Virus record (IMG/VR): IMGVR_UViG_3300021438_000011
Span: 1 to 64,000 of that record
Reading direction: 5' to 3' (one strand)
Length of the DNA stretch: 64,000 nucleotides
Source of the DNA: a virus
The stretch's first letter is position 1. Each line of letters begins with the position of its first letter. The notes under the pieces were generated by a model. That model made no database searches and was not told where the DNA came from. It saw only the letters and a list, made by a program, of their open reading frames with translations. This document shows, piece by piece, positions 3,438-50,105 of the stretch. Made by a program: the position numbers and the translations under genes.

Positions 3438-3466
3438 ATTATAGCACACATTTGACGAAACATCAA
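3438..3466 (-). promoter_or_regulatory. sigma70 promoter for the leftward PhoH/ClpP unit
   Basis: Read on the minus strand: -35 TTGATG (3466-3461), 17-base spacer, -10 TATAAT (3443-3438) with an extended TGC directly before the -10. It is divergent to the promoter at 3491-3518. Confidence 0.8.
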
Positions 3467-3490
3467 TAGTTTAAAAAATTTAGCTAAGTA

Positions 3491-3518
3491 TTGACTTTGT
3501 CTAAAACGATGCTAGAAT
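3491..3518 (+). promoter_or_regulatory. sigma70 promoter for the winged-helix gene
   Basis: TTGACT, 16-base spacer, TAGAAT, with TGC before the -10. The predicted start near 3525 lies about 20 bases before the GTG start of the downstream gene. Confidence 0.7.
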
Positions 3519-3545
3519 AATAGAGCTTAAACAAAAGGAGTTCAT

Positions 3546-4730: not shown

Positions 4731-4755
4731 TTATTGTATATTTTGTTGATTTCCC

Positions 4756-4784
4756 TTGAAAATTACAATAATTCATGGTATAAT
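4756..4784 (+). promoter_or_regulatory. strong sigma70 promoter upstream of structured RNA and tRNA array
   Basis: TTGAAA (4756-4761), 17-base spacer, TATAAT (4779-4784), with an extended TGG before the -10. The predicted start near 4791 coincides with the 5' arm of the terminal stem of the RNA element below. Confidence 0.8.
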
Positions 4785-4789
4785 TAAGC

Positions 4790-4887
4790 TTATCTTGTAA
4801 ATAGAAGTATTAAGGCTAATGTAAATATTGGTTTTAAGCGCCAGTACCCTGCATTAGCAACAACCGTACTACTAACCTACAAGATAA
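4790..4887 (+). ncRNA. end-paired structured RNA element (98 nt), leader of tRNA array
   Basis: A 10-base perfect inverted repeat TTATCTTGTA (4790-4799) and TACAAGATAA (4878-4887) encloses a second stem, GCTAATGTA (4815-4823) with TGCATTAGC (4850-4858), which has one G-U pair. The 5' arm starts at the predicted transcription start of the promoter at 4756. Downstream lie two more small hairpins: CCTATC (4933-4938) with GATAGG (4946-4951), and CCC with GGG near 4967-4975. No protein frame fits. It is probably a small RNA or a processed leader; the family is not recognised. Confidence 0.5.
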
Positions 4888-4989
4888 CAACCGTCTATGA
4901 TTCGTAGTGTACTTTCCCTCCTTTCAACATTACCTATCGGTAGAAGATAGGAACCGTCACCTATTCCCGTAAGGGTAGTGTATCTCATA

Positions 4990-5247
4990 ATGGACAAACT
5001 ACTATATATTGACTATAATGAGATACAATTAGAACATATATTTGGGAACACTATGAAATGCATTATTTGCAATCAGTACTTTAAGCAAACCATCTTCAAT
5101 AATACATATGAATGCGATGAATGCAGAAGTATTGTACTGGACGAAATTGATTCAGAGACACAAGTAGAGTTTAGTCTACTGCGTAATCCTTCTGGTAGAA
5201 CACATGCTCATATCTATGATGAGAATGATACCGGGGATTCAATTTAA
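4990..5247 (+). CDS. small zinc-ribbon-like protein
   Basis: From ATG 4990 this is an 85-residue protein with CIIC and CDEC pairs 18 residues apart, which would bind one zinc ion. Start choice is weak: GTG 4978 sits 2 bases after AAGGG, ATG 4990 sits 14 bases after it, and ATG 5053 directly precedes the first cysteine pair but has no clear site. The acidic C-terminus (DENDTGDS) ends 8 bases before tRNA-Thr. Function unknown; perhaps nucleic-acid or protein binding. Confidence 0.5.
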   Translation: MDKLLYIDYNEIQLEHIFGNTMKCIICNQYFKQTIFNNTYECDECRSIVLDEIDSETQVEFSLLRNPSGRTHAHIYDENDTGDSI

Positions 5248-5345: not shown

Positions 5346-5651
5346 ATGACAACAAAAGAGTATCACCGAGAATGGGCAATTAAAAATAGAGATAAAAGAA
5401 ATGCCCTGAACAAAGCTTGGAGAGATAAAAGACAGTCAGAATACCTAGAATTTAAGAAGACATTAAAATGTAATCGTTGTGGATTTTCACATCCAGCTGC
5501 ATTACAATTTCATCACACCGATCCATCTACAAAAGAAGCGTCTGTAAGTGCAGTAGCTAAATCTTGGTCATTAAAGAGGCTACAAGAAGAGATTGCTAAG
5601 TGTGAAGTCTTATGTGCAAATTGTCATGCAATTGAGCATTGTAAAGAGTAA
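5346..5651 (+). CDS. HNH endonuclease between tRNA genes
   Basis: The 101-residue protein has CNRCG at about residues 42-46, LQFHHTDP at 52-59 and CANCHA near 90-95. This is the compact HNH fold with a zinc site made by two CxxC pairs and a catalytic HH. The N-terminal 35 residues are very basic and likely bind DNA. It is inserted between tRNA-Thr and tRNA-Ile, a common place for free-standing homing endonucleases in phage tRNA arrays. Confidence 0.85.
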   Translation: MTTKEYHREWAIKNRDKRNALNKAWRDKRQSEYLEFKKTLKCNRCGFSHPAALQFHHTDPSTKEASVSAVAKSWSLKRLQEEIAKCEVLCANCHAIEHCKE

Positions 5652-5743: not shown

Positions 5744-5771
5744 TTGACAACGGCTAAAATGCTGTTACAAT
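5744..5771 (+). promoter_or_regulatory. sigma70 promoter within the tRNA array
   Basis: Consensus TTGACA (5744-5749), 16-base spacer, TACAAT (5766-5771). The predicted start near 5778 is only a few bases before tRNA-Glu, so this promoter probably drives the second half of the array and perhaps the terminase leader. Confidence 0.75.
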
Positions 5772-5781
5772 AAACTATATT

Positions 5782-5858
5782 GGCCCTGTCGTCTAGTAGG
5801 CTCAGGACATATGCCTTTCACGCATAAAAGTTGGGTTCGAATCCCAATGGGGCTACCA
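5782..5858 (+). tRNA. tRNA-Glu (UUC)
   Basis: Acceptor GGCCCTG pairs with TGGGGCT through several G-U pairs and CCA is encoded. The anticodon stem ATGC/GCAT and loop CTTTCAC give UUC. The T arm is TTGGG TTCGAAT CCCAA. The D loop matches bacterial tRNA-Glu (GTCTAG and AGGACA). Confidence 0.85.
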
Positions 5859-5867
5859 AATATTTAC

Positions 5868-5991
5868 TGCAGACAAGTCGGGTTAATACCTCCCCTGCAG
5901 CTTTATATACGTGTATTCCGCAACTACGTTAAAAGTTCGGCTGCTCAATCGCCAACGGAAAGAGAAAGTGTACACATCCTTCAGACACGTA
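5868..5991 (+). ncRNA. structured spacer RNA between tRNA-Glu and tRNA-Asn
   Basis: The 160-base spacer is not a recognisable tRNA but is highly foldable. CTGCAG occurs twice near 5868 and 5895 as complementary arms of one hairpin. A second domain is closed by TACGTGT (5908-5914) with ACACGTA (5985-5991), and inside it TTCCG (5916-5920) pairs with CGGAA (5956-5960). No encoded CCA, no D-loop GG and no T-loop consensus were found. It may be a decayed tRNA or a distinct small RNA released by tRNA processing. Confidence 0.4.
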
Positions 5992-6021
5992 CATCGTAAG
6001 GTAACAGTTGGAAGAATTTAT

Positions 6022-6097
6022 TCCATTATAGCTCAGTTGGTAGAGCAAACGCCTGTTAAGCGTTGGGTCGGAGGTTCAACCCCTTCTAATGGAGCCA
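6022..6097 (+). tRNA. tRNA-Asn (GUU)
   Basis: Acceptor TCCATTA pairs with TAATGGA, discriminator G, encoded CCA. The D arm is canonical, the anticodon stem AACGC/GCGTT with loop CTGTTAA gives GUU, and the T arm GGAGG TTCAACC CCTTC is paired. Typical of bacterial tRNA-Asn. Confidence 0.9.
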
Positions 6098-6101
6098 ATT
6101 T

Positions 6102-6191
6102 AGAAGTATGGTCGAGTGGCTTATGGCAATGGTTTGCTAAACCATCGGTGGCGAAAGCTGCCCACAGGTTCGAATCCTGTTACTTCTGCCA
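6102..6191 (+). tRNA. tRNA-Ser (GCU), long variable arm
   Basis: Acceptor AGAAGTA pairs with TACTTCT, discriminator G, encoded CCA. The anticodon stem ATGGT/ACCAT with loop TTGCTAA gives GCU. A long variable arm (CGGTGGCGAAAGCTGCC) marks it as class II. It reads AGC and AGU. It begins 5 bases after tRNA-Asn. Confidence 0.9.
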
Positions 6192-6193
6192 GT

Positions 6194-6243
6194 TTGAAAG
6201 TTTAAATGAAACGCCCAGAAGTGGTTCGAAGTTTCACTTTCAA
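6194..6243 (+). ncRNA. bulged hairpin in spacer after tRNA-Ser
   Basis: TTGAAAGT (6194-6201) pairs with ACTTTCAA (6236-6243), and GAAAC (6208-6212) pairs with GTTTC (6231-6235), giving a 13-bp hairpin with a 6-base one-sided bulge and an 18-base loop. No U tract follows, so it is unlikely to be a terminator. It may guide processing of the flanking tRNAs. Confidence 0.45.
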
Positions 6244-6251
6244 TTTAATAT

Positions 6252-6327
6252 CTCCGTAAAGTGTTATCAGGTTGCACTCGTGGTTTGGGGCCATGAGGTC
6301 TAGGTTCAAATCCTAGTATGGAGACCA
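6252..6327 (+). tRNA. tRNA-Pro (UGG)
   Basis: Acceptor CTCCGTA pairs with TATGGAG, discriminator A, encoded CCA. The anticodon stem CGTGG/CCATG with loop TTTGGGG gives UGG, and the T arm CTAGG TTCAAAT CCTAG is perfect. This tRNA could read CCC by wobble, relevant to the +1 slip site proposed at 26446. Confidence 0.88.
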
Positions 6328-6335
6328 AATATAAA

Positions 6336-6375
6336 GTTCCCTTTACTGATGGGCGGCGGAACAAATTATCAGTAA
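6336..6375 (+). ncRNA. candidate H-type pseudoknot in spacer after tRNA-Pro
   Basis: GTTCC (6336-6340) pairs with GGAAC (6357-6361), while TTACTGAT (6343-6350) pairs with ATCAGTAA (6368-6375). The order of arms is interleaved, which is H-type pseudoknot topology with a 2-base first loop and 6-base second and third loops. It lies between two tRNA genes and codes for nothing. Confidence 0.45.
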
Positions 6376-6381
6376 GAATAT

Positions 6382-6455
6382 AGCGGGTAAGGTGGTCACT
6401 ACTGCAGTCTCATAAGCTCGCAGCATCACTGGTTCGAATCCAGTACCCGCTTCCA
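6382..6455 (+). tRNA. tRNA-like, CAU anticodon (Met or Ile2), irregular
   Basis: Acceptor AGCGGGT pairs perfectly with ACCCGCT, the T arm ACTGG TTCGAAT CCAGT is perfect and CCA is encoded. The loop CTCATAA gives CAU. The anticodon stem GCAGT pairs with GCTGC only if one C is bulged out, the D arm is much shortened, and the discriminator is U, which is unusual for Met or Ile. It may be decaying or mitochondrial-like in shape. An intact CAU tRNA lies on the other strand at 47136-47211. Confidence 0.55.
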
Positions 6456-6513
6456 CTTATCGTTCTCCATTTCCGAATGGCGAATGCGCTATATTAGAAT
6501 AGCAAACAATTTA

Positions 6514-6600
6514 GGGTACGTATACCGTTAAGGAGACGGTCTGGTCTGTAAAACCAGCGCTACTACAGCTCGTATGGATCGTTACCATAAGTGCCCACCA
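6514..6600 (+). tRNA. tRNA-Tyr (GUA), long variable arm
   Basis: Acceptor GGGTACG pairs with AGTGCCC apart from the last position, discriminator A, encoded CCA. D stem ACCG/CGGT, anticodon stem CTGGT/ACCAG and loop CTGTAAA give GUA. The variable region is long, as expected for bacterial tRNA-Tyr. The T loop reads ATCGTTA, a departure from TTCGAAT. Confidence 0.8.
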
Positions 6601-6611
6601 AAGAACCCACC

Positions 6612-6789
6612 TTAGGGCCGTTGTCGCTAACGGTTATCTACTTTGTAGAAGGCGTCCCTTGTAGCTTGTCAGCAAGGTAACACGAGGACCATCAATCCTT
6701 GGGTAAGTACCGCCAAGTACTTATGCAAAAGACAACGTGAGTTGATGAGCCGTTAGAACGAAATGCTAACCCTGAATTCGGTACTCAGG
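6612..6789 (+). ncRNA. multi-hairpin RNA leader upstream of terminase
   Basis: The 208-base gap between tRNA-Tyr and the small terminase holds consecutive stems: CCGTT/AACGG (6618-6622, 6629-6633), CTAC/GTAG (6638-6648), CCTTG/CAAGG (6657-6661, 6673-6677), a perfect 7-bp TAAGTAC/GTACTTA (6704-6710, 6717-6723), GTTAG/CTAAC (6752-6756, 6766-6770) and CCTGA/TCAGG (6771-6775, 6785-6789). CTAACGG (6627-6633) could also pair with CCGTTAG (6750-6756) to fold the whole domain. No frame is coding. It could be a small RNA, a leader or part of the packaging site. Confidence 0.45.
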
Positions 6790-6809
6790 ACTAATACACA
6801 GGAGATAAT

Positions 6810-7163
6810 ATGGCTTTTGAAAAAGGCAAATCGGGCAATCCTAACGGTCGTCCAAAGCGCAGCAGCGTTATAGATAAACCAACTAATCGTGATCTAAAAG
6901 AACGTGAACTGATCATGCTATTACGCAAGATTAAGCCTCACGTTGCTGAAGCTATCTTACAAGCTGCCAAAATCATGAAGAATGAAGAAGCTAGTCATCA
7001 AAACCAATTGAAAGCTGCCACTATCCTATTGGATAACTATCGCAGACTTACTTTGGATGTATATGACGAAGAGCATTCTGATGAAGAAGGTACTGAAATC
7101 CAACAAGTCAACGCACCTTTGTTTTCTCTCAAGGTAATTGAGCAAGAAGAAAAAGCTGCATAA
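6810..7163 (+). CDS. terminase small subunit-like protein (DUF5681-type N-terminus)
   Basis: The 117-residue protein begins with KGKSGNPNGRPKR at residues 5-17, the signature of the DUF5681 family often found directly before large terminases. A helical middle and an acidic tail (DEEHSDEEG) follow. The ATG is preceded by AGGAG. Position, size and order (9 bases before the large terminase) support a DNA-recognition role in packaging. Confidence 0.75.
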   Translation: MAFEKGKSGNPNGRPKRSSVIDKPTNRDLKERELIMLLRKIKPHVAEAILQAAKIMKNEEASHQNQLKAATILLDNYRRLTLDVYDEEHSDEEGTEIQQVNAPLFSLKVIEQEEKAA

Positions 7164-7171
7164 GGAATTAA

Positions 7172-8644
7172 ATGCAAGAGAAACAAGTAGTAATCGGACC
7201 AGCATCTAAAAAGCAAGAGTTATTTTTGAATAGCGATTCAACTATTACACTAGCTGGTGGAGCGGCAGGTTCAGGAAAGACTTATACCTCGTTGCTAATT
7301 GCTTTAAAATTCATGCAGCATCCTAGAGCTACTGGAGTTATTTTCCGTAGGACTTCTAAGATGCTGACAGCGCCCGGATCAGTTTGGCAAGAAGCTTGTA
7401 ATCTTTACAGTGCTTTGTTTCCTAACTTGCGTATCCGTACAAGGGAATTAGAGATTATCTTCCCTAATGGTGCTTTACTTAAATTCAGTCACATGCAGCA
7501 CTCAAGTAACATGTACGATCACAAAGGTGGTCAGTACAGTTTAGTTATTTTTGATGAAGCAACGGACTTTGAGGAAGAGATGGTCGTGTACCTCTTATCT
7601 CGTATGCGAAATGCTTACGTAGATTATAAACCTCAGATGTTCTTGATGACTAACCCAGATTATAACAGCTTTTTGAGAGCTTGGTTAGAAGATTTCTACC
7701 TTGATCCACAAACTGGTATTCCACTTCCTGAAAAGACAGGATACAAGCGTTACTTCTTCCGTCAAGGAAATGCAATGCTTTGGTATAATAGCCTAGAAGA
7801 AGCTGAAGCTGTACACGGTGCTGGTAACGAATCCGGTATCAGTTCATTTACATTCATTGGTGCTACTTGCAGAGATAACCCTCCACTACTCAAAGCACAG
7901 CCCGACTATATTAGCCGTTTAATGTCCCTTCCTCGTGTTGAGAAAGAGCGACTATTAGACGGTTCTTGGTTTGCTCGTCAAGAGTCTGCTGGCTTGTTTA
8001 AACGAGAATGGGTAGGCTTAGTAGATCATGCCAATGGTAGAGCAAGACAAAGAATCCGAGCATGGGACTTTGCGTTTAGTCTTCCTTCTGAACAATACCC
8101 TAATCCTGACTGGACTCGTGGTGTATTAATGTCCAAAGATGAAGCCAAAGTTTATACAGTAGAAGACGTAGTGAGTATTCGTAATCGAGTGCATGAAGTT
8201 GAGAAACTTGTATTTCAAACTGCAATTCAAGATGGTCAAGATGTAATTATTTCAATTCCACTAGACCCTGCTGCAGCTGCTGGTGCTTATGCAAAAGACT
8301 TGCAAAGAAAACTAGCTGAGATGGGATTTAGTTGTAGATTAACTAAACCAGTTAAATCCAAGATTACTCGTTTTGCTCCTTTCTCTAGTATTGCTCAAGC
8401 TGGTTTTGTAAACGTAGTTAAAGCTAATTGGAATAAAGATTTCTTTGATGAATTGGAAGTGTTTGATGGCGACCCTAAGAAAAAAGACGACCAAGTGGAC
8501 TGCTGTTCAGATTGCATGCTTTTGCTCAACAGAGATACAACAATTCCTAATTTCACATTACCTGATTTTACAGGTTCTAATCCATTCGATAGTATGACAG
8601 GCTCAACGAGTAGTTTTCCTGCATTTTCAAGTATTATTAATTAA
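7172..8644 (+). CDS. terL: terminase large subunit
   Basis: This 490-residue protein is the packaging motor. The ATPase domain has Walker A GGAAGSGKT at 29-37 and Walker B LVIFDEA at 124-130 with the catalytic Glu129. The C-terminal RNase-H-like nuclease has its first acidic residue at Asp299 (RAWDFAF) and the last in KKDDQVDCCSD near 450. It cuts and pumps concatemeric DNA through the portal encoded just downstream. Confidence 0.95.
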   Translation: MQEKQVVIGPASKKQELFLNSDSTITLAGGAAGSGKTYTSLLIALKFMQHPRATGVIFRRTSKMLTAPGSVWQEACNLYSALFPNLRIRTRELEIIFPNGALLKFSHMQHSSNMYDHKGGQYSLVIFDEATDFEEEMVVYLLSRMRNAYVDYKPQMFLMTNPDYNSFLRAWLEDFYLDPQTGIPLPEKTGYKRYFFRQGNAMLWYNSLEEAEAVHGAGNESGISSFTFIGATCRDNPPLLKAQPDYISRLMSLPRVEKERLLDGSWFARQESAGLFKREWVGLVDHANGRARQRIRAWDFAFSLPSEQYPNPDWTRGVLMSKDEAKVYTVEDVVSIRNRVHEVEKLVFQTAIQDGQDVIISIPLDPAAAAGAYAKDLQRKLAEMGFSCRLTKPVKSKITRFAPFSSIAQAGFVNVVKANWNKDFFDELEVFDGDPKKKDDQVDCCSDCMLLLNRDTTIPNFTLPDFTGSNPFDSMTGSTSSFPAFSSIIN

Positions 8645-47135: not shown

Positions 47136-47211
47136 TGGTGCGACAGGAGGGAGTCGAACCCCCGACCAAGGCATTATGAGTACCCTGCTCTAACCGTTGA
47201 GCTACTGTCGC
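47136..47211 (-). tRNA. tRNA-Met (CAU), or Ile2 if lysidine-modified
   Basis: On the minus strand acceptor GCGACAG pairs with CTGTCGC, discriminator A, encoded CCA. The D arm GCTC AACGGTTA GAGC, the anticodon stem GGGTA/TGCCT with loop CTCATAA, and the T arm GGGGG TTCGACT CCCTC are all standard. The stop codon of the upstream protein gene lies inside its 5' end. Confidence 0.88.
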
Positions 47212-50030: not shown

Positions 50031-50105
50031 TGGTACGGCGTAGTGGAATCGAACCACTATTGAATGCTTAGAAGGCACTTGTACTATCCGTTGTACTAAC
50101 GCCGT
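50031..50105 (-). tRNA. tRNA-Arg (UCU)
   Basis: On the minus strand acceptor ACGGCGT pairs with ACGCCGT, discriminator A, encoded CCA. The anticodon stem AGTGC/GCATT with loop CTTCTAA gives UCU, and the T arm AGTGG TTCGATT CCACT is perfect. It reads AGA, a codon rare in many hosts but used by this phage. Confidence 0.9.

Follow-up and report, generated by a model that had tools for sequence, protein, structure and literature searches.

Small stable RNAs encoded between the tRNA genes of phages form a recognised kind of transcript, with rnaC and rnaD of T4 and seven RNAs of T5 as the described examples. The T4 products RNAC and RNAD (species 1 and 2) are small, stable non-tRNA RNAs of a phage tRNA cluster, as is proposed below for the element X1; they have been described as late RNAs of unknown function (PMC9697503), and they differ from X1 in their length of 119-139 nt and in that both lie at the 3' end of the cluster. 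In T5, seven stable non-tRNA RNAs whose function is likewise unknown (RNA1, RNA2, RNA2H, RNA3, RNAI, RNAIII and RNAIV) alternate with the tRNA genes, like the spacers of the locus considered here. Similar in setting are GOLLD and ROOL, structured phage and prophage RNAs of unknown function found near tRNA islands (PMC12286853), which differ from the elements X1 and R1 described here in being far larger and cage-forming, and which gave no Rfam match in this locus. Like X1, ToxI and the pseudo-ToxI of phage PhiTE are compact pseudoknots of the H type, and some phages carry them (PMC5086642; PMC3475682), whereas ToxI differs from X1 in consisting of repeat arrays of one unit, followed in bacteria by toxN.

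The stretch of DNA analysed here (the window) comprises bases 1-64,000 of the 79,223-base virus record of a freshwater phage, whose large terminase subunit (TerL) shares 87% identity with its counterpart in Limnohabitans phage DC31, and it was compared with a set of 79 related contigs. Its tRNA cluster runs in the order Thr, HNH ORF, Ile, Glu, [X1], Asn, Ser, [X2], Pro, [X3], Met, [X4], Tyr, [R1], terS, terL, where the bracketed segments are not tRNAs, and the located features from the promoter-like site described below to terS are on the plus strand. The genes that flank X1 are tRNA-Glu(TTC) at 5782-5858 and tRNA-Asn(GTT) at 6022-6097, the latter beginning 10 nt past X1, while the small terminase subunit gene terS (6810-7163) lies downstream of R1 and is followed by terL (7172-8644). 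Two tRNA genes of the cluster were overlooked by ARAGORN: tRNA-Met(CAT) at 6382-6455, which has an enlarged anticodon arm with the loop CTCATAA, and tRNA-Tyr(GTA) at 6515-6600, in which the T loop ATCGTTA replaces TTCGAAT. The former scores 25.8 bits against the Rfam tRNA model (RF00005) over 6382-6452 and has homologues that ARAGORN calls in L023, L031 and L063, and the latter is 93-97% identical in L020, L034, L055 and L063; since both are kept in relatives, they are real tRNA genes and not spacers. The T loop ATCGTTA is also seen in tRNAs of L110 (9824-9899) and L073 (about 3450-3520), and ARAGORN calls such tRNAs inconsistently. Further tRNA genes lie far from the cluster on the minus strand (Met 47136-47211, Arg 50031-50105). 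A separate intergenic stretch at 4740-4990, upstream of a small zinc-finger-like ORF, contains hairpins and is conserved (86% identity in L003; partial in L020, L024 and L035), and in Curvibacter phage P26059A a GCTGGAACCGTAACCAGC hairpin resembling the last hairpin of R1 is found upstream of what appears to be the same zinc-finger-like gene.

When the region was compared with its relatives by BLAST, the order of tRNA genes was found to differ, and certain spacers were seen to move as modules. An HNH endonuclease-like ORF (5346-5651) is located between tRNA-Thr and tRNA-Ile and is a likely agent of this shuffling. A promoter-like site, TTGACA-16-TACAAT (11/12), was found by scanning at 5744-5771, between tRNA-Ile and tRNA-Glu, in a region where the number of such sites is at the chance level; the stretch 5744-5772 is 93% conserved in L015, L018 and L075. 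From this site a transcript could extend over Glu-X1-Asn-Ser-X2-Pro-X3-Met-X4-Tyr-R1-terS.

A first-pass annotation of this DNA had placed four foldable non-tRNA segments between the tRNA genes, and all four are present where it put them. Their folding energies, in order, give z-scores of +1.0, -1.4, -1.3 and -1.1 against shuffled sequence, so that most spacers are indistinguishable from shuffles as single sequences, and for this reason the matter was decided by comparison with relatives. The covariation analysis that the annotation had proposed revealed conserved pairing for X1 and R1, and these two of the four segments are thus proved by compensatory base changes, in comparative terms, to be conserved structured RNAs. 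The annotation had also suggested that the spacers could be decayed tRNAs. Although the segments occupy gaps between tRNAs and have ordinary folding energies, they show no match to RF00005 even at E 10, none to Rfam 15 at the gathering score (the weak matches being at chance level), and the covarying structures are a double pseudoknot and a multi-helix domain and not a cloverleaf; the idea that the spacers are decayed tRNA genes or chance folds is scarcely credible overall, is already refuted for X1 and R1 by the covariation between relatives, and may yet hold for X2. The best explanation is that the spacers of this array serve as genes for RNAs, or as RNA elements in their own right, and are not filler. 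Repeated placement had been taken as a sign of function, which is borne out for X1 and R1, where pairing is kept in relatives, but lacks such support at 6194-6243.

X1 (5908-6012), identified from covariation, a covariance model and its relatives, is a tandem double H-type pseudoknot of about 70-75 nt when a 30-nt hairpin insert (5965-5994, where 5968-5973 pairs with 5989-5994) found only in the window phage is left aside. In the first pseudoknot, the loop of hairpin S1 (5909-5912/5926-5929) pairs downstream to form S2 (5918-5920/5938-5940); in the second, hairpin S3 (5943-5946/5962-5964+5995 and 5949-5950/5958-5959) presents the loop GCYAACG, which pairs with a downstream GUURG to form S4 (5952-5956/6007-6011). 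This loop and the linker GCRUAAGRUNACAGUU are invariant. The 7-bp closing stem previously assigned to 5868-5991 does fold (TACGTGT 5908-5914/ACACGTA 5985-5991) but is not the conserved structure: its 3' side falls within the insert, which has no counterpart in relatives, and it is therefore private to the window phage. In many relatives the Glu-Asn stretch containing X1 is 95-98% identical, the insert excepted.

Pattern scans of viral contigs yielded 37 distinct copies of X1, with matches that had neither the fold nor the context (L112, L115, L116, L124, L125, L129, L131 and L135) left out, and the subtypes differ precisely at the pairing positions. In an alignment of 28 distinct sequences (A1), 89.3% of cells in helices S1-S4 are paired as opposed to 76.9+-1.0 in shuffles, and the covariation score is 0.249 as opposed to 0.073; double compensatory cells number 54 against 16.4+-2.9, a value reached in 0/500 shuffles, which ignore kinship and so give no strict probability. 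Pairing falls to 26-40% when the partners are slid by 1-3 columns, a comparison that favours the structure because it was derived from the tested sequences, whereas the shuffle controls and the pair types are independent of that. MAFFT misaligns S1/S2 of L111, L127 and L132, which would lower the score if anything. In S2, eight pair types occur (CCG/CGG, CUGC/GCAG, CGG/CCG, CCCA/UGGG, CCCG/CGGG, CCU/AGG, CCAG/CUGG and CCAA/UUGG), and S4 changes from CCAAC/GUUGG to CUAAC/GUUAG in L111, L122 and L132. One-base indels and frame-breaking inserts among relatives rule out a protein-coding X1; a tmRNA-like role, with a short in-frame tag followed by a stop, was rejected as the frame differs between subtypes; and Pistol ribozyme, tmRNA and ToxI were set aside as identities, these resemblances having no Rfam match.

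With E 1e-6 as the upper limit, the covariance model of X1 (R2) recovers 48 loci, the E-values of models built here being rough and all counts referring to distinct sequences, as viral contigs are fragments and non-independent. With this model, whole records contain exactly one copy of X1 in 21/24 cases and none in 3/24. The TerL of the window finds no match among 19 X1-bearing records outside its own group; among these records, the TerL of the L118 record is 51% identical to those of T5-like Vibrio phages, and that of the L138 record is 54% identical to that of Pseudomonas phage PA5oct. Judged by these terminases, X1 is common to three unrelated phage lineages (the window's group, T5-like and PA5oct-like), for which horizontal spread is the simplest reading. 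No copy was found in isolated phages by blastn, and neither X1 nor R1 was found in bacterial genomes by pattern search. With respect to placement, a tRNA starts 3-10 nt downstream of X1 in 31/39 distinct contexts, and in 4 further contexts an unusual tRNA-Asn, uncalled by ARAGORN, lies 8 nt past it; the copies in L010, L111, L122 and L132 have no tRNA directly after them. The tRNAs that follow X1 are Thr, Val, Asn, Asp, Ser, Ala and Leu, and in many copies at most a few bases lie between the start of X1 and the CCA that ends the tRNA before it. L136, a 104,246-base record, carries a single X1 amid 39 tRNA genes in 14.4 kb. A pseudoknot-like element, AGTCYNGNACACNCGGACTTTAAA...GTGG..GTAGGTGNAAGCCC, occurs right after X1 in L111 and L132 and also in L146 (the record of L109), and is a candidate for a further RNA family of tRNA-rich phages.

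The pseudoknot topology noted earlier at 6336-6375 (X3) is exact in both stems, S1 (6336-6340/6358-6362, GTTCC/GGAAC) and S2 (6343-6350/6368-6375, TTACTGAT/ATCAGTAA), and in the 64 kb there is one pseudoknot of this size on the plus strand and three on the minus strand. X3 is known from four nearly identical sequences, which differ in the core at 6362 alone, where the window has C and the others T and the pairing survives as G-C or G-U. In the window it comes after tRNA-Pro and 7 nt ahead of tRNA-Met; its near-identical copies in L015, L063 and L106 come after tRNA-Glu, which is the slot of X1 in other relatives, and in L015 and L106 it fills the Glu-Asn gap with tRNA-Asn at about the distance that separates X3 from Met in the window. 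The remaining spacers are less well defined. The hairpin described at 6194-6243 does fold (z -1.43) but has its own fold as its one support, BLAST of the region against relatives having returned none, so that X2, a putative bulged hairpin filling the Ser-Pro gap at 6194-6245, is unproved as an RNA element. A fifth spacer, X4 (6457-6505), was absent from the first-pass annotation; it consists of two hairpins upstream of tRNA-Tyr, its fold is more stable than those of shuffled sequence (z -2.74), and it is seen again in L010, L034, L037 and L062 with a few changes that preserve pairing, hairpin 1 being variable in L010/L034.

As a non-tRNA RNA of conserved structure lying between phage tRNA genes, X1 falls within the general kind of phage tRNA-array ncRNA, and by analogy with T4 RNAC/RNAD and the T5 stable RNAs it is most likely a small stable RNA cut out by tRNA processing. 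Release by tRNA-processing enzymes fits both X1 and X3, given the fixed spacing from CCA end to tRNA 5' end and the T4/T5 precedent, and it follows general tRNA biology as regards RNase P. X1 and X3 would be transcribed together with the tRNAs, and cleavage by RNase P at the 5' end of the next tRNA, with trimming of the trailer of the previous one, would release them; the product would be a compact, stable X1 RNA of about 70-75 nt, whose invariant loop and linker may allow it to act in trans, with a protein as its most likely binding partner. We favour, with moderate confidence, a joint explanation in which X1 (and X3) would be freed in this way, with X1 acting in trans, and R1 would be a cis-acting leader. 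It is possible but unlikely that X1 and X3 instead work in cis, as pseudoknots that shape the processing, folding or protection of the precursor of the next tRNA and are never free RNAs. The fixed distance of 3-10 nt from X1 to the next tRNA would suit such a role, as would the 7-8 nt spacing that X3 holds despite a different next tRNA (Met in the window; Asn in L015 and L106); on the other hand, a single X1 is present per genome though arrays reach 39 tRNAs, the identity of the tRNA after it varies, four copies adjoin no tRNA, and its invariant unpaired bases exceed the needs of a spacer.

The other alternative for X1, which we regard as rather improbable, is a phage decoy or antitoxin-like pseudoknot RNA directed against a host defence nuclease, as in type III antitoxins or PhiTE pseudo-ToxI. 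The order of elements in its first pseudoknot (a hairpin, then a linker rich in U and A, then a strand that pairs with the loop of that hairpin) is presumably ToxI-like, a likeness that serves as no more than a lead. Type III antitoxins belong to the H-type pseudoknots (PMC5086642) and phage use of such an RNA has been described (PMC3475682), and passage of X1 between lineages at one copy per genome would be in keeping with this role, whereas it has no Rfam ToxI match and is built of two unlike units and not one unit repeated. The PF13958 (toxN) profile matched none of 23 records, in a search whose control likewise matched nowhere. Equally doubtful is the fuller version, in which X1 would be a horizontally shared counter-defence double-pseudoknot decoy, freed by host tRNA processing and neutralising a nuclease or other defence protein; if true, phage tRNA arrays would hold such an RNA in the form of a tRNA-like cassette.

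R1 (6602-6794) is a conserved multi-helix RNA of about 180 nt between the last tRNA and terS, with a domain at 6612-6794 closed by the stem UUAG/CUAA and ending 15 nt upstream of the terS ATG. The multi-hairpin segment previously drawn at 6612-6789 matches this domain almost exactly, and the domain has 29 covarying pairs. In an alignment of 28 distinct sequences (A3) with an eight-helix structure, 94.7% of cells are paired as opposed to 80.2+-0.7 in shuffles, 29/41 pairs show double changes against 17.0+-1.9, and double-change cells number 147 against 41+-6. Outside its training set, the R1 covariance model finds the distant TerL relatives L045, L047, L072 and L073, as well as P26059A (83354-83547, E 5.5e-22); R1 is also present in Limnohabitans phage DC31 (12520-12707, minus strand), whose record annotates no feature there. 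A match in PA5oct (E 0.0045) falls within a coding gene of the opposite strand and was taken as chance. It was also observed that the first hairpin of T4 rnaD (L140 1554-1672), CCGGGTCGCTACCGG, resembles the R1 hairpin CCGTTGTCGCTAACGG, a likeness that is no more than a lead, the models giving no significant match.

With its conserved structure in the 5' UTR directly upstream of a coding gene, R1 is most likely a cis-acting leader, which as the leader of a late packaging mRNA may set its 5' end, stability or translation. Release by tRNA-processing enzymes does not fit R1 well, because it lies about 15 nt upstream of a start codon and is retained in loci that have no tRNA genes (L038 and L039). 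In other phages (L110, L122 and the record of L109), shortened relatives of R1 are embedded within tRNA arrays, so that R1 may be a free RNA and not a leader; the idea that it is an independent ncRNA whose site before terS is a mere habit of genome order is a serious contender, though we judge it the less probable reading. Such independence would also be consistent with the HNH gene, accompanied by its own small RNA, that separates R1 from terS in L010 and L017, and with the GC-rich hairpin and TTTT between R1 and terS in L045 and L047, which the L047 terminator scan did not count. Against it, the terS ATG comes 11-18 nt after the end of R1 in most loci, and R1 keeps such a distance even where the gene is not terS, as in L031/L032, where 14 nt separate it from another gene and terS is 1.2 kb beyond. 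The small RNA before the HNH ORF of L017 (4995-5062) scores 34.0 bits against Rfam int-alpA (RF02996; cut-off 35.8, E 1.5e-5), and similar small RNAs precede HNH endonuclease ORFs in L010 (~2620-2690) and L063 (from 1027).

Over the T4 tRNA cluster the best scores of the models are 6.5 bits for R1 and 6.8 bits for R2, which are no match, and over the T5 cluster R2 gives none at E<=2 and R1 6.8 bits, again no match; no description of X1 or R1 was found in the open-access literature. As X1 and R1 match nothing in T4, T5 or Rfam 15, they are, as far as searched, new families within a known kind. The stable RNAs of T4 and T5 are on record but without wide homologues that would reveal which parts matter, whereas X1 is a family whose secondary structure has been tested, which has invariant bases and whose phylogenetic spread is clear, and its function is thereby approachable by compensatory mutants. 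R1, in turn, is a candidate structured leader of a packaging operon, found in two isolated phages of known host. Taken together, these elements suggest that structured RNAs form an unannotated layer of phage tRNA arrays and spread between lineages as tRNA genes do.
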